From assembly GCA_003696125.1 (NCBI GenBank), contig RFHZ01000327.1, positions 1 to 14,535 on the forward strand: a DNA stretch of 14,535 nt, read 5' to 3'. The position numbers and the translations under genes were made by a program. Below the pieces are notes generated by a model. The model did no database searches, was not told where the DNA came from, and saw nothing but the letters and a program-made list of their open reading frames with translations. This document shows positions 2,746 through 12,743 of the stretch, one piece after another; the stretch's first letter is position 1; every line of letters starts with the position of its first letter. Source of the DNA: Nitrospinota bacterium. GTDB lineage: Bacteria > Tectomicrobia > Entotheonellia > J063.

Positions 2746-2777
2746 CCTTATTGCCCTGGCATGGAGGAGAGATACTC

Positions 2778-3683
2778 ATGGCAAGACAACCTCTGTTCAT
2801 CGGGATCAGCATCGCGATCCTGGTCATCCTCTTCTTCCTCAAGATCTCGGCCTATACCGTTTCCGAAACCGAACAGGTCGTTGTTACCCAATTAGGAAAG
2901 CCGGTACGCATCGTAGGAGGGAGAGAGAAGATCGCCCCCAAGGATACCTCTATCCCCTGGTCCCCTTCCCCTGGCCTCTACTTCCGGATCCCCTTCCTCC
3001 AGCAGCTCCACTACTTTGATGATCGCGTCCTCGATTACGATTCGGCTCCGGCCCCGATCATCACCAAGGACAAGAAGACGCTGGAAATGGACAACTACGC
3101 CAAGTGGCGTATCGTCGATCCCCTGGTCTTTCTGATGTCGGTTCAGAATGAGCAGAACGCCCAGGCACGTCTCGATGATATCATCTATTCCAAGCTGCGG
3201 GAACAACTCGGATTGCACACGCTGACCGAGATCGTGGCCAAGGCGCGGGGAAAGCTGATGGGGGAGGTGACCAAGACTAGCAATGCCGTTGCCCAGCAGT
3301 ACGGCATCGAGATCATCGATGTGCGCATCAAACGGGCTGACCTTCCCCCGGAAAATGCCAAAGCGGTCTTTGGGCGGATGCGAGCCGAACGGGAGAGAGA
3401 GGCCAGGCGGTACCGGTCCGAGGGGAAGGAAGAGGCGTTGAAGATCCGGGCAGAGACGGATAAGCTACGCAGCATCCTGCTGGCCGAGGCCTACGAAAAG
3501 GAGCAGACGATTCGAGGGGAAGGGGATGCGGAAGCGACGCGTATTTATGCGGAAGCCTATCAGCAGGACCCCCAATTCTTCGTCTTTCTCCGCACCCTGG
3601 AGGCGTATAAGAAATCGTTGCGGGGGAAGACCACCCTCTTGCTCCCCCCCCAGAGCGAGTTTTTGCAGTTCTTGACCCGCTAG
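2778..3683 (+). CDS. hflC: HflC, SPFH/Band 7 membrane protein (FtsH protease modulator subunit)
   Basis: HflC is the partner of HflK and is 301 residues long here. A membrane segment lies at about residues 6-22 (LFIGISIAILVILFFLKI). It is followed by the Band 7 domain starting YTVSETEQVVVTQLGKPVR and containing the typical DNYAKWRI and LREQLGLHTLTEI segments. A heptad-like charged helix (MRAEREREARRYRSEGKEEA) and a C-terminal LLPPQSEFLQFL tail follow. The start at 2778 is preferred over an in-frame start at 2751 because GGAGGAGAG sits at 2763-2771, ideally placed for 2778, and because the protein then begins with MARQPLF directly before the membrane helix. It forms an operon with hflK. Confidence 0.95.
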   Translation: MARQPLFIGISIAILVILFFLKISAYTVSETEQVVVTQLGKPVRIVGGREKIAPKDTSIPWSPSPGLYFRIPFLQQLHYFDDRVLDYDSAPAPIITKDKKTLEMDNYAKWRIVDPLVFLMSVQNEQNAQARLDDIIYSKLREQLGLHTLTEIVAKARGKLMGEVTKTSNAVAQQYGIEIIDVRIKRADLPPENAKAVFGRMRAEREREARRYRSEGKEEALKIRAETDKLRSILLAEAYEKEQTIRGEGDAEATRIYAEAYQQDPQFFVFLRTLEAYKKSLRGKTTLLLPPQSEFLQFLTR

Positions 3684-5479: not shown

Positions 5480-5502
5480 GAGGGATAGAAATAGCTCTTG
5501 AC
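5467..5502. promoter_or_regulatory. Compound operator-like element between divergent promoters
   Basis: A perfect 8-bp inverted repeat, GTCAAGAG (5475-5482) and CTCTTGAC (5495-5502), is separated by 12 bases. It is interleaved with an 8-bp direct repeat GATAGAAA at 5467-5474 and 5484-5491, a 17-bp period. The inverted-repeat arms carry the -35 elements of both divergent promoters. A regulator binding here could control both at once. The divergently encoded HTH-REC-PilZ protein is the obvious candidate, which is an inference. Confidence 0.5.
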
Positions 5503-5527
5503 AGGAGGAGAAAAAAACTTTCATAAT
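5498..5527 (+). promoter_or_regulatory. Predicted main promoter (P1) of the signalling operon
   Basis: TTGACA (5498-5503) is a perfect -35, followed after 18 bases by CATAAT (5522-5527), which matches the -10 at five of six positions. The start site would be near 5534, leaving a leader of about 85 bases. The -35 overlaps the right arm of the shared inverted repeat. It is among the best sigma-70 matches in the window. Confidence 0.7.
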
Positions 5528-5618: not shown

Positions 5619-6566
5619 GTGAGAGTAAAAAGGAGAGATCTAACCACAGGAGAGATTGCCCGCTACTGCCAGGTCACGCATTTCACCGTTACCAACTGGA
5701 TCAATGCCGGAAAGCTACGCGCCTATCGTACGCCCGGCGGTCATCACCGTGTACGGCCAGAAGACTTCATCGATTTCCTGATCACTTACCGCCTGCCTAT
5801 ACCCGAAGAATTTGCCTTACATAGCATCCCACGCATTCTGGTCGTCGATGATGATGCCGAGGTGGCTGCCGCGCTCTCGCAAGCGCTACGACAGGCCGGC
5901 TACCAGGTGGAGACGGCTGCCGACGGCTATGAAGCCGGACTCAAGATGGCCACGTTTAAACCTGACCTGCTGGTGCTCGACCTCATCATGCCCCGGATCA
6001 ACGGGTTTGAACTCTGCACCCGGGTAAAAGAAGACCCGGCCACGCAACATGTAAAGATCATCGCGATGACCGGGTATGTAGAGGAGAATAATGTGGATAA
6101 GGCCTTGGCCTCCGGTGCTGATGCCTGCTTAACCAAACCGTTCCGTCCAGAGCAACTCCTTCACGAGATTCACCGTTTTTTCCCCCCTGAACCGCATGTC
6201 TATGGCAAAAGCCAGGGCCTGGAACGGCGTAAGGTGCGCCGGGCCTCTCTCTCCCTCCCGGTCCACTATGCTGTCCATGCCCCGCAGCAGAAAGGGGAAG
6301 ACCAGATCACAGGAGAAGGCCGGACCATGAATATCGGCTATGGGGGGTTAATGCTGGAGACCGATACCCTGCTCCTCCCCTCTCACCTCTTAACCATGGA
6401 TATCTACTTCCCGCATCGAACAGAACCGGTCTCCATAGAAGGGGAAGTGCGCTGGATGCAGCAGGGGGCAGAGGCAAAACACCTGGTAGGAATCCGGTTC
6501 CTTTCCATTTCAGAACGGGCCAGGGCGGTCCTGGCCCAGGAGCTTTCCCAGGCTGAGCAGCGGTAG
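5619..6566 (+). CDS. Response regulator with HTH (excisionase/MerR-like), receiver and PilZ domains
   Basis: This 315-residue cytosolic protein has three parts. Residues 8-60 are an excisionase/BldC-like winged HTH (LTTGEIARYCQVTHFTVTNW, then LRAYRTPGGHHR). Residues 71-190 are a complete receiver: acidic pocket D77-D79, phosphoacceptor D121 in LVLDLIMP, T151 and K173 (LTKPF). Residues 200-305 are a PilZ domain with RRKVRR (RxxxR, R204/R208) and NIGYGG at 238-243. NIGYGG matches the (D/N)xSxxG c-di-GMP motif except that Gly replaces Ser. The start is GTG at 5619, with GGGAGAG upstream and no better in-frame start. It is the first gene of a four-gene operon; the next starts 20 bases downstream. 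It probably binds DNA under joint control of phosphorylation and a cyclic dinucleotide, and may act on the repeats upstream of its own gene. Direct c-di-GMP binding is not proven. Confidence 0.88.
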   Translation: MRVKRRDLTTGEIARYCQVTHFTVTNWINAGKLRAYRTPGGHHRVRPEDFIDFLITYRLPIPEEFALHSIPRILVVDDDAEVAAALSQALRQAGYQVETAADGYEAGLKMATFKPDLLVLDLIMPRINGFELCTRVKEDPATQHVKIIAMTGYVEENNVDKALASGADACLTKPFRPEQLLHEIHRFFPPEPHVYGKSQGLERRKVRRASLSLPVHYAVHAPQQKGEDQITGEGRTMNIGYGGLMLETDTLLLPSHLLTMDIYFPHRTEPVSIEGEVRWMQQGAEAKHLVGIRFLSISERARAVLAQELSQAEQR

Positions 6567-6586
6567 CCTGCAGAGAGGAGAAAAGG

Positions 6587-8245
6587 ATGGAAAAGCCTAA
6601 GATAGCACGGATTTTGCTCTTCTTGTTGGGGATGCTGCTCGGCCTGGGGGGAGTCCTCCCCTGCCAGGCCCAATGGCCGGGACCTTTTTCTGGAAAGGAG
6701 AGACCCCGGCAGGGCGGGGTATACCGGCGTCCCCTAAGCCATGAACCTTCCTCCCTCGATCCCGCCCGCACCACCGATGTCTACGCCAATACGGTCGTCA
6801 ATCAGCTCTTTGATGGGCTGGTACAGTTTGATAAGCACCTCAACCCTATCCCGGCTATGGCCGGTTTCTGGGAAGCTTCGTTAGACGGGCTTCGCTGGAC
6901 CTTTTATCTCCGGCAGGGGATAAGGTTCCACAACGGCCGAGAGGTCACGGCCGCCGATGTGGTCTATTCCTTTCAACGGATCCTCGATCCTGCCCTGCAG
7001 TCACCGGTAGCAGAGTTCTTCCAGTATATCCAGGGGGTAAACGCCTTCCGGGAGGGGAGAGTGCCCCACATAGAAGGATTGCAGGCGCTCGATCCTTATA
7101 CCCTCCAGATCGTGTTAACCGAACCGTACGCCCCCTTCCTCTCCGTGCTGGCCATGGCCAATGCCAAGGTGGTTCCCCGGGAAGAGGTCCTCGGCAGGGA
7201 AGAACGGTTTGCCCGTCATCCGGTGGGAAGCGGTCCGTTTCGTTTCCATCGCTGGGAGCCTCACCACCGTATAGAGCTGCAGGCCAATGATGCCTACTAT
7301 GAGGGTCGCCCTTTCCTCGATCGGATCGTCTTTACCATTATCCCCCAGGAGGCGGAGAGCTTCACCGCCTTTCTAGACGGTGCCCTGGAGGAGGTGATTA
7401 TCCCCACGACCCGGGCGCAGGAAGTGCAAAGTGATCCGCAGTATCGCAGGTATATCCATCTGCGCAAACCGCTTCTTCACCTGCTCTATATCGGGTTTAA
7501 TACCCGTAAGGAGCCGTTTACCCATCCCCAGGTCCGGCAGGCCTTCAATTACGCCGTGAACAAAGAGGCGATCGTGCGGGAGATCACGCGCCAGGGGAGC
7601 ATCGTGGCCCGGGGGATCCTCCCACCAGGGATGCCGGCTTACAATCCTGATCTGGACGGTTATTACTACAGTCCCCGTCGGGCCAGGCAGCTTTTGGCCC
7701 AGGCCGGGTACCCAGAGGGGAAGGGACTCCCGGTAATCGATCTCTGGACGAGTTCTCAAAAGGTCACGACGGCTCAAGAACTCAAGGCCTACCAGGAGTA
7801 TCTCGCCGAGATAGGGGTCAGGGTAGAGATCCATCAGGCACCGAACTGGCAGGCCTTCAAAGAGAGGCTGACGGCAGGAAAAGCTTCCATGTTCCGGCTG
7901 GCCTGGTACGCCGATATTCCTGATCCGGACAATTTCCTCTTCCCGCTCCTCTTTTCCCAGAGCAAGATGAATCGAACCTTCTACCAGAATCCGGTGGTCG
8001 ATCGCTTGCTCGAGCAGGCCAGACGAGAGACGAACTACCTGAAGCGTATCGCCATCTATCGGGAGGTAGAGAGACGGGCCCTGAACGATGCTCCCTGGAT
8101 CAGCCAGAGCCATCGGGTTTTTGATTACCTCTACCAGCCGTACGTGCGGGGAGTCGAGCTCAATGCCCTGGGTCCTCATTATATCCCGATGAAGAAGATC
8201 TGGCTCCGCTCCAAGCCAGATACACAGGTGCAGAGGGAACGATGA
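6587..8245 (+). CDS. Family 5 extracellular solute-binding protein (peptide/nickel ABC type), exported
   Basis: This 552-residue protein begins with a Sec signal (KPKIAR, then a hydrophobic core at about 8-24). It is probably cleaved near PCQA-Q (residue 28 or 29); C26 follows a poor lipobox, so a lipoprotein is possible but less likely. The mature part is a typical SBP_bac_5 fold. It includes LSHEPSSLDPARTTD (about 50-64), TFYLRQGIRFHNGREVTAAD (about 105-124) and VRQAFNYAVNKEAIV. Relatives capture oligopeptides, metals or opines for ABC importers. Here no permease or ATPase gene is adjacent. The stop codon overlaps the start of the histidine kinase (ATGA), so it may serve as a periplasmic ligand sensor for that kinase, which is an inference. 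The ATG is preceded by GAGAGGAG. The ligand is unknown. Confidence 0.92.
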   Translation: MEKPKIARILLFLLGMLLGLGGVLPCQAQWPGPFSGKERPRQGGVYRRPLSHEPSSLDPARTTDVYANTVVNQLFDGLVQFDKHLNPIPAMAGFWEASLDGLRWTFYLRQGIRFHNGREVTAADVVYSFQRILDPALQSPVAEFFQYIQGVNAFREGRVPHIEGLQALDPYTLQIVLTEPYAPFLSVLAMANAKVVPREEVLGREERFARHPVGSGPFRFHRWEPHHRIELQANDAYYEGRPFLDRIVFTIIPQEAESFTAFLDGALEEVIIPTTRAQEVQSDPQYRRYIHLRKPLLHLLYIGFNTRKEPFTHPQVRQAFNYAVNKEAIVREITRQGSIVARGILPPGMPAYNPDLDGYYYSPRRARQLLAQAGYPEGKGLPVIDLWTSSQKVTTAQELKAYQEYLAEIGVRVEIHQAPNWQAFKERLTAGKASMFRLAWYADIPDPDNFLFPLLFSQSKMNRTFYQNPVVDRLLEQARRETNYLKRIAIYREVERRALNDAPWISQSHRVFDYLYQPYVRGVELNALGPHYIPMKKIWLRSKPDTQVQRER

Positions 8246-9861
8246 GGGAAATAGGCGCTCCGGATGTGGCCGACCTCAAAGGAGTGACGTGGGTGCAACG
8301 GGCCCGTGCATGGCTTTTTCCCCTCCGGCAAAGCCTTCGGGCCAAGTTTATCGGAGTGATCCTGATCGTGCAGATCTCCCTGATGATCCTGGTCACCGTG
8401 GTGATCGAGAAGCGACAGCGGGAAACCATCCTGGGGGAGTCACAGAAACGAGCCTTCTCCCTGGCCAGAAATCTGGCCGCTTTAAGCGAAGGGTATCTCT
8501 TCAGCTATAACTTCATCAAACTGGAACAGACCGTAGAGAAGGTGGCCGAGGAAGAGGATGTGGCGTACGCCATTGTGCATCTCCATGACGGAAGGGTCGC
8601 CGCTTACAGTGGACGCAGTGCCATGCAGGGGAAGATCTTGCCTGATCCGATCAGCCAAAAGGCGGTAGCCACCTCCACCCCTCTCCTGCAGGAGGCACGT
8701 TCACCAGAATTGGGAGGCCGGGGATACGATGTGGCCATCCCCCTCTTTGCCCCTGGCGGGACCCGCAAGTGGGGAACGATCCGCATCGGTTTTTCTCTGG
8801 CGCGCGCCATGTACGAGATCCAAAAGACCACCCGGAACCTCGTCTTTCTCGGGCTCCTCGCCATCCTTCTGGGAACCGGGGAGGCGATATTTCTCGCCTG
8901 GCAAATCTCCAGGCCGGTTCAGCAACTGGTACAGGGAGTCGATGCTGTCGCCCAGGGAGATTACGATCAGGCCATTGTGGTGACCACCCAGGACGAGATC
9001 GGCTACCTTGCCCGGCGTTTTGAGGAGATGCGCAAGGCGCTGCGGGCCCATATCCAGAGCCTGGATGAAGAGAAACGCCGGCTCGAAGAGGCCAATCGCA
9101 CCATCAGAAGAACGCAGGCCCAACTGATCCAGAGTGAAAAGATGGCGGCTATTGGCCGCCTGGCCGCCAAAGTGGCCCACGAGGTGAACAATCCTTTGGC
9201 CATCATCACCACCTCGCTGCAGATCATCAACAAGACGATTCCGGCCACCGATCCCCACAGAGAGAACCTGCTCGTCATCGAGGAAGAGATCGGGCGGATT
9301 GGCCGGATCATCAAACAACTTCGCGAGTTTTCTCGCCCCTCTACCGAGGTGTCGCTGGTGCAGGTCAACGAGGTTATCCGCCATGTGACCACCTTTGTGG
9401 AGAAGGAGTTGGCCAAACAGGGCATTGAGAGGCGTTTAGAGCTGGCTTCGGATCTCCCGGCGATCCGTATATCGCGGGATCAACTCAAACAGGTACTGCT
9501 CAACCTGATCAAAAATGCCCAGGAAGCCATGCCCCAAGGCGGACTGCTGTGTATCCAGACGGCCAGACAACCCCAGGGGGTCCTGATCAGCGTTTGCGAT
9601 AGCGGGGTTGGTATCCCTCCCGAGCATCGACGTCTGCTCTTCCATTCCTTCTTTACGACCAAAAAGAAGGGAGAGGGGATGGGACTTGGGCTGTCCGTCT
9701 CTGCCGCCATCGTGAAGCAGTACGGAGGATCCATCGAAGTCGAAAGCCAGCCGGGAAAGGGGAGTGTGTTTCGCGTGTTTCTCCCCGAATACCCTCCCAG
9801 CATCATCGGAGAGCATTCTCCTTCTGGAAGAACAGAGCTACAAAAGGAGCAATGGTCATGA
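8242..9861 (+). CDS. Membrane sensor histidine kinase with periplasmic sensor and HAMP domains
   Basis: The protein has 539 residues. A first membrane helix (about 36-55) and a second (about 200-221) enclose roughly 140 periplasmic residues with Cache/PAS-like patterning (AYAIVHLHDGRVAAYSG; WGTIRIGFSLA). A HAMP linker (about 222-275) and coiled coil lead to the dimerisation domain, with phosphoaccepting H313 in AHEVNNP. The ATPase domain has an N box (N421/N425), G1 DSGVGIP (453-459) and G2 GLGLS (481-485). The catalytic residues are all present. The protein resembles kinases of the NtrB/AtoS type in its kinase core. The start codon overlaps the stop of the binding-protein gene by four bases, pointing to translational coupling and a shared function. 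Its gene ends in ATGA overlapping the next start. Confidence 0.93.
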   Translation: MREIGAPDVADLKGVTWVQRARAWLFPLRQSLRAKFIGVILIVQISLMILVTVVIEKRQRETILGESQKRAFSLARNLAALSEGYLFSYNFIKLEQTVEKVAEEEDVAYAIVHLHDGRVAAYSGRSAMQGKILPDPISQKAVATSTPLLQEARSPELGGRGYDVAIPLFAPGGTRKWGTIRIGFSLARAMYEIQKTTRNLVFLGLLAILLGTGEAIFLAWQISRPVQQLVQGVDAVAQGDYDQAIVVTTQDEIGYLARRFEEMRKALRAHIQSLDEEKRRLEEANRTIRRTQAQLIQSEKMAAIGRLAAKVAHEVNNPLAIITTSLQIINKTIPATDPHRENLLVIEEEIGRIGRIIKQLREFSRPSTEVSLVQVNEVIRHVTTFVEKELAKQGIERRLELASDLPAIRISRDQLKQVLLNLIKNAQEAMPQGGLLCIQTARQPQGVLISVCDSGVGIPPEHRRLLFHSFFTTKKKGEGMGLGLSVSAAIVKQYGGSIEVESQPGKGSVFRVFLPEYPPSIIGEHSPSGRTELQKEQWS

Positions 9862-11474
9862 GTAGCAAGATACTCCTCATTGAAGATGAAGCCCGCTTAC
9901 GCCAGAACCTGCAGCTCCTCTTGACGAGTGAGGGGTATACCGTAATCACCGCCTCCAACGGATACGAAGGGATACAGCGTCTCCAGCAGGAGCAATTCGA
10001 TCTGGTCATTACCGATATCATGATGGAGGAAGGGAACGGGTTTGAGGTCATGGAGTACCTCTCCACCCATGCCCCGGACACCCTGACCATTGTGATTACC
10101 GGATATGCCTCGACCGATTCGGCCATTGAAGCGCTTCGCAAGGGGGCGTACGATTATTTGGCCAAGCCGTTTGATATCGATATGATGAAGATCTCTATCG
10201 AGAGAGCCCTGGAGAAGGTGCAACTCCGACGCCAGGTCCAGACCTATATGCAGGAACTGGAGCAGCGGGTTGCCGACCGTACCAGGGAACTGGAGGAGAT
10301 GAACAAAAAGCTCAATGCCTCCCTGGCCGACCTGCAGGCAGCCCAGGAGCAGTTGATACAGTCTGAGAAGCTCTCTGCCCTGGGGGAGCTGATCTCGGGT
10401 GTGGCGCATGAACTCAACAACCCGCTCACCTCGGTCTTGGGCTATGCAGAGCTTTTGTCCCACTCCGAGGCCTGTCCCCCTGAGGCACGCACCATGCTGG
10501 AGAAGATCAGCCAGGAAGCGATGCGTTGCCATCAGATCGTCAAAAATCTGCTCAGCTTCGCCCGCAAGCAGAAACCGGAGAAGAAGTACATCGATATGAA
10601 CGCCCTGTGCCGGAAAACCCTCGATCTTCTGGCCTACCAGCTCCGCGTCAACAACATCACCGTGGTGACCCAGCTTGCAGAGGGACTCCCCAAGACGATG
10701 GCCGACCAGCATCAGCTCCAGCAGGTGCTCGTCAACCTGCTGACCAACGCCTACCAGGCCATGGCCGATTACCGGGGAGAAGGAAAGCTCACGGTAGCCA
10801 CCGCCTATGATGAGGACAAAATCTATATCCGGGTGACCGATAATGGACCGGGAATCCCTCCGCAGAGCCTTCGACGCATCTTTGACCCCTTCTATACCAC
10901 CAAAGAGAAGGGTACCGGTTTGGGACTGAGCCTCTCCTACGGCATCGTGCAGGAGCATGGAGGAGAAATCGGGGTGGTGAGTCAACTGGGGCAGGGAACC
11001 ACCTTTACCGTTGCCCTCCCCATCATTGCCGAACCGGTGCCTGAACAGGAAGCTCCCTCCCGGTCCACGCCGACCTCCCTCCCCGCCCAGAAGATTCTGG
11101 TCGTCGATGATGAAGAGACCATTCTCGATCTGGTCACCGATATCCTCCATACCCTGGGCCACCAGGTGGAAACAGCCTCTTCTGGTCGAGAAGCCCTGCA
11201 GAAGATGGATAGCCAGCAGTACGATCTGATCATCTGCGATATCAAGATGCCGGAGGTGGACGGGCGACAGATCTATCAGTTCCTCAAGGACAAACACCCC
11301 TCCCTGCTCAATCGTTTGATCTTCTCCAGTGGAGACACGGCCAGTGAGGAGAGCCAGGAGTTTCTGAAGGAAACCGGGTGCCTCTTCCTGCAAAAGCCGT
11401 ATCTACTGGAGGAATTTACGCAGGTACTCCACCAGGCCTGTTTGCGCACGGAAGAGGAGGTCCAACAGCCTTGA
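9858..11474 (+). CDS. Soluble hybrid histidine kinase: receiver - kinase - receiver
   Basis: This 538-residue protein has no membrane segment. REC1 (about 3-120) has D10/E11, phosphoacceptor D53, T81 and K103, but Glu replaces the usual Pro after DIMM. A coiled coil (about 125-170) leads to a HisKA/HATPase core: H184 in VAHELNNP, N box N293/N297, G1 DNGPGIP (328-334) and G2 GTGLGLS (352-358). REC2 (about 412-530) has D417/D418, phosphoacceptor D461 in CDIKMP, S490/S491 and K513. No Hpt domain is present. The start at 9858 is chosen over 9852 because GGAG (9846-9849) is eight bases away and because it recreates the ATGA overlap seen at the previous junction. It likely receives phosphate from the upstream kinase through REC1, which is an inference. 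Confidence 0.93.
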   Translation: MSSKILLIEDEARLRQNLQLLLTSEGYTVITASNGYEGIQRLQQEQFDLVITDIMMEEGNGFEVMEYLSTHAPDTLTIVITGYASTDSAIEALRKGAYDYLAKPFDIDMMKISIERALEKVQLRRQVQTYMQELEQRVADRTRELEEMNKKLNASLADLQAAQEQLIQSEKLSALGELISGVAHELNNPLTSVLGYAELLSHSEACPPEARTMLEKISQEAMRCHQIVKNLLSFARKQKPEKKYIDMNALCRKTLDLLAYQLRVNNITVVTQLAEGLPKTMADQHQLQQVLVNLLTNAYQAMADYRGEGKLTVATAYDEDKIYIRVTDNGPGIPPQSLRRIFDPFYTTKEKGTGLGLSLSYGIVQEHGGEIGVVSQLGQGTTFTVALPIIAEPVPEQEAPSRSTPTSLPAQKILVVDDEETILDLVTDILHTLGHQVETASSGREALQKMDSQQYDLIICDIKMPEVDGRQIYQFLKDKHPSLLNRLIFSSGDTASEESQEFLKETGCLFLQKPYLLEEFTQVLHQACLRTEEEVQQP

Positions 11475-11488
11475 CACCTCTGATCGGG

Positions 11489-11502
11489 AGGGGATCTCCC
11501 CT
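11489..11502. terminator. Small hairpin between convergent genes (weak terminator candidate)
   Basis: AGGGG (11489-11493) and CCCCT (11498-11502) flank an ATCT loop, and a G-U pair can extend the stem. It sits between the hybrid-kinase stop and the hydrolase stop, where both operons end. No U-tract follows on either strand, so an intrinsic terminator is uncertain. Confidence 0.25.
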
Positions 11503-12743
11503 TAGCGGCCAGGTTCAGCCTCTGCCAGGGCTAAGACCGTCTGGTACAGGACGTTGGCCCCTTTCTCTATATCCTCCCAGGCCGTCTCCTCTTCTTCGCA
11601 GTGGCTCTTCCCCCCGATGCTGGGAACGAAGATCATCCCGGTGCGGGTAACACGGTTGAGGTAGTTGGCATCGTGTCCGGCTCCTCCCACCATCTTCCGG
11701 TAGGGATAGCCCAGCCTTTGACAGCTCTGCTCAATGGTGGCCACGATTTCGGGGGAGAAGTGAGTCGGGGGCACATGCCAGAAGTTCTCCACCTCGATCT
11801 GCACCCCCTCTGCCTGCGCGATCCGTGCCGCTTCTTCTTTCAGGCGGGCCAGCGCCTGGTGGATCTTCTCCTCTTCTGAGGCCCGGATATCGACGGTGAG
11901 GACAACACGGCCCGGGATCACGTTGACCAGATTCGGTTCGACATCGAGGGACCCGACAGTGGTCACCATGTCTCCGCCAAACGTTTGCGCCAGCTTGCGG
12001 ACGGTGGTCACGATCTGGGCCGCAGCCACCAGGGCGTCATGGCGCATCACCATCGGTGTCGGCCCGGCATGATCCCGTTCCCCGCGAATCGTTACCCTGG
12101 ACCAGGAAAGACCCAGAATCCCCTCCACCACCCCGATCGGGTACCCTTCGGAGACGAGAACCGGTCCCTGTTCCACATGCATCTCTACATAGGCGTGGAA
12201 ATCACGGGGAGCACATTTAAGGGTACCCCGGTACCCGATACGCTCCAGCTCTTCACCGAACTGCTTTCCCTCTTTATCGGTGCGCGTGTAGGCGTATTCC
12301 AGGGAAAAGGCTCCGGCCAGGACCCCGCTGGCGAGCATGGCCGGGGAGAAACGGACCCCTTCCTCATTGGTAAAGGCCACCACTTCCACCGGATACCGGG
12401 TGGTGACCTGCTCATCGTTCAGGGTGCGGACCACCTCCAGGGCACTGATCACACCCAGGGCCCCGTCGAACTTCCCCCCCTCTTTGACACTGTCGATATG
12501 CGAGCCGATGAGCACCGGGCCGAGTCCCTTCTCCTTCCCCTCTCTCCGTCCAAAGATGTTCCCCATCTCGTCGATCATCACCGTCAGCCCGGCCTCTTTT
12601 AGCCAGGTGACGAGCAGGTCTCGACCCGCTTTATCCGCATCACTCAAGGCGAGTCGCGATACTCCACCGTTAGGGGTTGCCCCGATCTGGGCGAGAGCGA
12701 GCAGACTCTGGCGCAATCGATCAAGCTGAATGGTCACGGTCAT
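11502..12743 (-). CDS. M20-family Zn-dependent amidohydrolase (N-carbamoyl-amino acid hydrolase / allantoate amidohydrolase type)
   Basis: This 413-residue enzyme has the metal-ligand pattern of the carbamoylase/allantoate amidohydrolase branch of peptidase family M20. The pattern is GSHIDSV (H82), KFDGALGV (D93), FTNEEGVRF (E127/E128), EMHVEQGP (H189) and GGKSHCEEE (H381). The dimerisation/lid domain lies between about 208 and 325 (GILGLSW; ERDHAGPTPM). Relatives hydrolyse N-carbamoyl-L-amino acids, N-carbamoyl-beta-alanine or allantoate, releasing ammonia and CO2. The exact substrate cannot be assigned, and no hydantoinase or allantoinase gene is in view. The start at 12743 has AGAGGAG close upstream. 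It lies 11 bases downstream of the acyl-CoA dehydrogenase gene, so the two form an operon on the minus strand. There is no signal peptide, so it is cytosolic. Confidence 0.92.
   Translation of the reverse strand: MTVTIQLDRLRQSLLALAQIGATPNGGVSRLALSDADKAGRDLLVTWLKEAGLTVMIDEMGNIFGRREGKEKGLGPVLIGSHIDSVKEGGKFDGALGVISALEVVRTLNDEQVTTRYPVEVVAFTNEEGVRFSPAMLASGVLAGAFSLEYAYTRTDKEGKQFGEELERIGYRGTLKCAPRDFHAYVEMHVEQGPVLVSEGYPIGVVEGILGLSWSRVTIRGERDHAGPTPMVMRHDALVAAAQIVTTVRKLAQTFGGDMVTTVGSLDVEPNLVNVIPGRVVLTVDIRASEEEKIHQALARLKEEAARIAQAEGVQIEVENFWHVPPTHFSPEIVATIEQSCQRLGYPYRKMVGGAGHDANYLNRVTRTGMIFVPSIGGKSHCEEEETAWEDIEKGANVLYQTVLALAEAEPGR

Follow-up and report, generated by a model that had tools for sequence, protein, structure and literature searches.

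The four genes at positions 5619–11474 of the window (the whole 14,535-nucleotide stretch of DNA that was analysed) probably encode a two-component system that depends on a solute-binding protein (SBP) and has a branched or relayed output. We give this reading a probability of roughly 0.6. All four genes lie on the + strand. The first encodes an HTH_17-REC-PilZ regulator of 315 aa with a GTG start (P1, 5619–6566), and is followed by genes for an exported family-5 SBP (SBP_bac_5) of 552 aa (P2, 6587–8245), a membrane histidine kinase of 539 aa (P3, 8242–9861) and a soluble REC-kinase-REC protein of 538 aa (P4, 9858–11474). P1 and P2 are separated by 20 bases, and the P2/P3 and P3/P4 junctions are ATGA overlaps (8242–8245 and 9858–9861). 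The reading frames, spacings and strand given in the original prediction were all recovered, its domain assignments for P1–P4 were borne out by a Pfam scan, and each phosphorylation site that it named (D121 in P1, H313 in P3, and D53, H184 and D461 in P4) is found at the claimed position. The further two-component residues N425 and D453–G457 in P3, N297 in P4 and K173 in P1 are also present.

A sigma-70-like site on the + strand (5498–5527, TTGACA-18-CATAAT, 11/12 positions) lies 91 bases upstream of the P1 start. It was the best of seven sites in a pattern scan where shuffling gave an expectation of 2.5, and is a predicted promoter only, not functional evidence for one. No Rfam family was found in the window. 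Outside the operon, a divergent gene transcribed oppositely to P1 (4042–5349) encodes an ATP-grasp protein whose C-terminal domain is of the L-amino-acid-ligase type. A convergent gene (11502–12743) encodes an amidohydrolase of the M20 hydantoinase/carbamoylase family. The ATP-grasp gene and P1 have one intergenic region in common; the former could be a target, or its product a dipeptide maker. Further away are two consecutive HflK/HflC-like Band_7 genes (1690–2745 and 2751–3683) and, at the window edge, a fragment with a SecA-end-like tail (132–605).

P2 is a full-length SBP_bac_5 protein (Pfam, E = 1.2e-95) with a hydrophobic leader ending CQA/Q; no canonical lipobox is present in this leader. 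Its nearest solved structures are peptide-binding proteins. D443, in the motif WYADIPDP, corresponds by alignment to the Asp in the OppA motif WCADY and is invariant in the alignment of the P2 clade described below. In OppA, the Asp of the W-x-x-D motif meets the amino end of the peptide. The P2 ligand would most likely be a short peptide or a peptide-like amine. In P3, hydrophobic stretches flank a periplasmic region of about residues 57–197, where an sCache-like domain (about 8425–8817) is a sub-threshold Pfam match: sCache_3_2 over residues 62–192 scores 26.8 bits where the cut-off is 28.4, and its counterpart at locus L130 (below) passes with 33.0. When the PDB was searched with the P3 sensor profile, no periplasmic domain of known structure was matched, the better hits covering only the HAMP domain and the second membrane helix. 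A structure of this part predicted from the single sequence had a pLDDT of 47 and was left unused. The sensor is followed by HAMP (8890–9048), HisKA with H313 (9154–9342) and HATPase_c (9475–9789) domains. P4 consists of REC1 with D53 (9870–10190), HisKA with H184 (10380–10571), HATPase_c (10704–11021) and REC2 with D461 (about 11082–11447).

We propose that P2 works as a receptor accessory, and not as part of a transporter. Ligand-loaded P2 would dock on P3 at its sCache-like periplasmic domain and stimulate the kinase, which would autophosphorylate at H313 and pass the phosphate to D53 in REC1 of P4. P4 would integrate this input and transfer phosphate from H184 to its own D461, to D121 of P1, or to both. 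Phosphorylated P1 would then bind DNA differently at its putative target genes through its N-terminal MerR-like HTH, with c-di-GMP as a possible second input, through the PilZ domain, that adjusts the same protein.

For the comparison of gene order, only four closer genomes were found, all from the window's class; all others share only its domain. The full four-gene order recurs beyond close relatives, which goes against the condition that the original prediction named as its refutation, though in one distant genome only: a single-contig genome of another phylum (G062), where all four genes are found in the same order and on the same strand (L130). There, an HTH-REC protein of 213 aa without PilZ precedes an SBP (37% identical to P2), a histidine kinase (41% in the sensor) and a REC-GAF-GAF-PAS-HK-REC hybrid (54% in the kinase core). 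A genome of the window's own class (G004, locus L125) retains SBP-HK-(REC-HK-REC) and has no HTH-REC-PilZ gene, the identities being 54% for the SBP, 52%/45% for the histidine kinase and, in the hybrid, 69% for REC1, 67% for the core and 52% for REC2. The comparison thus supports the genes as a conserved unit, with four of them in L130, three in L125 and the SBP-kinase pair in several further families and several other phyla. The PilZ domain does not belong to the conserved core.

The source genome, a fragmented draft of 990 contigs, also contains a paralogous cluster. The ends of two of its contigs, C192 and C200, share 84 bases with a single mismatch, and joining them restores an open REC-PAS-GAF-GAF-HD-GYP protein of 804 aa. 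The joined cluster starts with three subtilases (one cut), a histidine kinase and the REC-PAS-GAF-GAF-HD-GYP protein, and continues with a lone REC, two SBPs and a further subtilase. The kinase is 65% identical to P3 in the sensor and 62% in the core, and the SBPs are about 65–70% identical to P2. Another candidate join, C458/C692, was rejected, as the contig ends share only a repeat.

The recurrence of the SBP-kinase pair was explored by running a profile of the P3 sensor region over 386 genomes and inspecting the neighbourhoods of 40 of the best matches. Strong full-sensor matches in seven genomes (G035, G005, G089, G211, G176, G341 and G111) each lie directly downstream of an SBP_bac_5 gene; for a match in G374, the neighbourhood is cut by a contig edge. 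Adjacent SBP and kinase genes were found at L125, L126, L127, L130, L139–L144 and L147. Weaker sensor relatives, among them L145, L146, L148, L155 and L163, have no family-5 SBP gene as a neighbour and were not counted with the SBP clade. Some of them (L146, L148 and L155) adjoin other exported proteins, for example a phosphonate-type binding protein (L155) or an OmpA/propeller protein (L146), hinting that the P3 type of sensor may be a general docking partner for exported proteins.

The SBPs of these loci are set apart from their transport relatives. In trees of 54, then 77, family-5 SBPs from the compared genomes, the 13 signalling-linked SBPs form one clade, with SH-aLRT supports of 98 and 100. 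Eleven of the 13 are directly beside a kinase with a P3-type sensor, and the remaining two are the tandem pair on C192, which lies behind receivers and has its kinase on the joined contig C200. No permease gene is beside any clade member, and the nearest SBPs outside the clade, from the same and other genomes, are mostly permease-adjacent. The notion that SBP adjacency is trivial in SBP-rich genomes was rejected, since the signalling-linked SBPs form a clade apart from many permease-linked ones. One kinase-linked SBP, that of L152, falls outside the clade. The kinase-linked loci had initially been chosen by sensor similarity, and an SBP-first search of the 386 genomes removes part of this bias. 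With a profile trained on clade members and at most three candidates scored per genome, members scored at least 591 bits (at least 746 if complete) and the next tier at most 537. Most of the next-tier loci inspected are directly before ABC permeases, and none is beside a kinase. For 12 SBP-kinase pairs, SBP distances correlate with sensor distances at r = 0.854 (0/5000 permutations), a correlation of a kind that co-inheritance alone can produce, whereas the value for SBP against kinase core is r = 0.554. This comparison shows binding protein and sensor apparently moving as a unit, with the catalytic core exchanged, co-inheritance explaining part of the joint divergence.

These data bear on an alternative that we regard as unlikely, in which P2 is an ordinary peptide scavenger for a permease encoded elsewhere, P3 senses its ligand directly without help from P2, and the kinases act with P1 to control how peptides are taken up or used. 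P2 is, after all, a normal full-length SBP_bac_5 protein whose structural neighbours bind peptides, the operon is flanked by an amino-acid-ligase-like ATP-grasp gene and an M20 amidohydrolase gene, and sCache domains often bind ligands directly. Adjacency is also no proof of coupling, because the Pseudomonas aeruginosa kinases AgtS and AruS, according to PMC11113362, did not bind their neighbouring SBPs. However, none of the nine window proteins scanned with Pfam is a permease or ATPase of an Opp/Dpp-type operon, the P2 clade is never permease-adjacent though the same genomes hold many permease-linked SBPs, and the divergence of its SBPs tracks that of the sensor domain.

The route of phosphate from P3 is indicated by the receivers that accompany kinases of its type. 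The receiver that follows such a kinase resembles REC1 of P4, with 69% identity in L125 and 63–66% in the paralogous cluster, and is kept whether it is fused to a kinase (L125) or to PAS-GAF-GAF-HD-GYP (the paralog). Other receivers sampled from the source genome are at most 43% identical to REC1, except the lone REC of the paralogous cluster (58%). Since the receiver is conserved and the output fused to it is swapped, the simplest reading of this co-occurrence is that the P3 kinase has its actual partner in REC1. It would be quite improbable, in our estimate, that P3 and P4 are parallel kinases converging on P1 and each phosphorylating it directly, with P3 reading the periplasm and P4 reading a cytoplasmic signal or, through REC1, another kinase. 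Such an arrangement would fit with Pfam finding no HPt domain in P1–P4, so that a classical four-step relay is not evident, and with other loci at which the direct partner of the SBP-linked kinase is an NtrC-type regulator, encoded 3′ (L127, L152) or 5′ (L141), or a lone receiver (L140, L147). At L142–L144, a receiver is fused to the kinase. Against this arrangement, receivers of the P4 REC1 type are conserved after P3-type kinases with different outputs, even where HTH-REC is absent (L125 and the C192/C200 cluster).

The output of the proposed system is P1, with HTH_17 (5640–5780, aa 8–54), REC (5835–6170, aa 73–184, with D121) and PilZ (6225–6542, aa 203–308) domains, the last scoring 41 bits against a Pfam cut-off of 22.5. 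Its HTH-REC part is 45–48% identical to the counterpart at L130. HTH-REC proteins occur in 34 of the 386 genomes, mostly distant from any SBP, and the idea that each of them is paired with an SBP was rejected, as this is true only of the window and L130. Although this wide distribution, and the presence in G004 of the other three genes with no HTH-REC, would allow P1 to be a loosely attached regulator placed upstream and not an output of the kinase set, we consider this very unlikely, given that in another phylum (L130) these three genes are again headed by an HTH-REC gene, that P1 lies 20 bases before P2 in the same direction of transcription, and that a contig-edge fragment resembling the P1 C terminus is near the paralogous cluster.

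The PilZ domain is peculiar to the window's P1: it is absent from the other HTH-REC proteins at all loci inspected, and the view of PilZ as part of a conserved system was therefore rejected. A sequence search of the PDB with the PilZ part alone gave no match. The domain has RxxxR at about 203–208 and NIGYGG at 238–243, where a G replaces the usual S of (D/N)xSxxG. By sequence matches over the cut-off, the source genome has five GGDEF and four PilZ domains, so c-di-GMP signalling is probably present in the organism. With RxxxR and GGDEF genes present, a c-di-GMP input to P1 is plausible, but the second motif is atypical. Other HTH-REC proteins differ in what is fused to them, with a second receiver in L180 (5603–6562) and L196 (6433–7392), and a long unrelated C-terminal region in L190 (4026–6092). 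At L131 (8862–9458) and L132 (6877–7443), the acceptor Asp is replaced by Glu or Tyr and the proteins are probably not phosphate-switched. Phosphate may thus not be needed by every HTH-REC regulator; D121 of the window's P1 is intact.

The paralogous cluster adjoins an array of subtilase genes. A join of C200 with C231, whose overlap is 169 bases long and 97% identical, is less certain, as the ends are within subtilase genes that are repeated. On C231, four further subtilases follow a protein fragment whose terminal PilZ domain has 41% identity to the one in P1. Over the three contigs (L250, C231 1–5925; L129, C200; L128, C192), the array comprises no fewer than six subtilase (S8) genes that contain low-complexity inserts, in one case with RTX-like repeats. 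The contig-edge PilZ fragment is at its head, and the kinase, HD-GYP and SBP paralogs follow it. The sole subtilase of this type found in G004 (L125 5502–6923, contig C43) is directly upstream of the SBP-kinase-hybrid genes. No subtilase is present in the window. Because subtilases adjoin SBP-kinase genes in both the paralog and G004, we hypothesize a circuit of secreted proteases, a peptide-type SBP and a kinase, which by extension could provide a peptide ligand for the window operon. A broader scenario, which is tentative and in our judgement rather doubtful, is that this SBP lineage left transport to become, with the sCache kinase, a mobile extracellular receptor front end common to several phyla. 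In the source organism this would close a loop in which peptides released by subtilases are read by the SBP, with outputs gated by c-di-GMP through the HTH-REC-PilZ regulator and the paralogous REC-PAS-GAF-GAF-HD-GYP phosphodiesterase.

Kinases activated by binding proteins are hard to identify, since the SBP is needed in its ligand-loaded form. The present clade, whose SBPs are linked to kinases and never to permeases, offers a rule by which such pairs can be predicted from sequence in different phyla, and a defined group of candidates to test. The window adds an unusual output, one regulator that could read both phosphorylation and c-di-GMP, and the paralogous cluster suggests a protease-peptide-sensor circuit. 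SBP-activated kinases are an established kind; the original prediction knew of no named system with this gene set, and our search of the open literature, with most subscription journals outside its coverage, likewise found no description of the gene set or of the SBP lineage.

LuxP-LuxQ, TorT-TorS and ChvE-VirA are examples of sensor kinases activated by SBPs. As in such systems, the gene for an exported SBP here adjoins that of a membrane kinase which has a periplasmic domain of its own, and the loaded SBP is proposed to activate this kinase. The differences are that the SBP belongs to family 5 and to a lineage associated with kinases and not with permeases, that a soluble REC-kinase-REC protein is encoded after the kinase, and that an HTH-REC-PilZ regulator heads the operon. 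According to PMC11113362, the SBP gene is next to or near the kinase gene in 10 of 11 characterised pairs, and receptor activation involves SBPs from at least 13 families. P2 shares with OppA and DppA the fold family, full length and the Asp of W-x-x-D, but no member of its clade is near permease genes, kinases being found there instead. MrkH and BrlR are c-di-GMP-responsive transcription factors of the PilZ or MerR type. As with these, a DNA-binding protein may be a direct target of c-di-GMP, and the HTH of P1 is MerR-like; P1 differs in that a receiver, whose phospho-acceptor Asp is conserved, is placed between its HTH and PilZ domains. The SgmT-DigR pathway of Myxococcus xanthus, as described in PMC3509222, similarly combines c-di-GMP reception with a hybrid kinase and a response regulator that binds DNA. 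In that pathway c-di-GMP is received by the hybrid kinase, whereas in the window the DNA-binding regulator carries the PilZ domain, and an SBP and a second kinase are encoded in the same operon.
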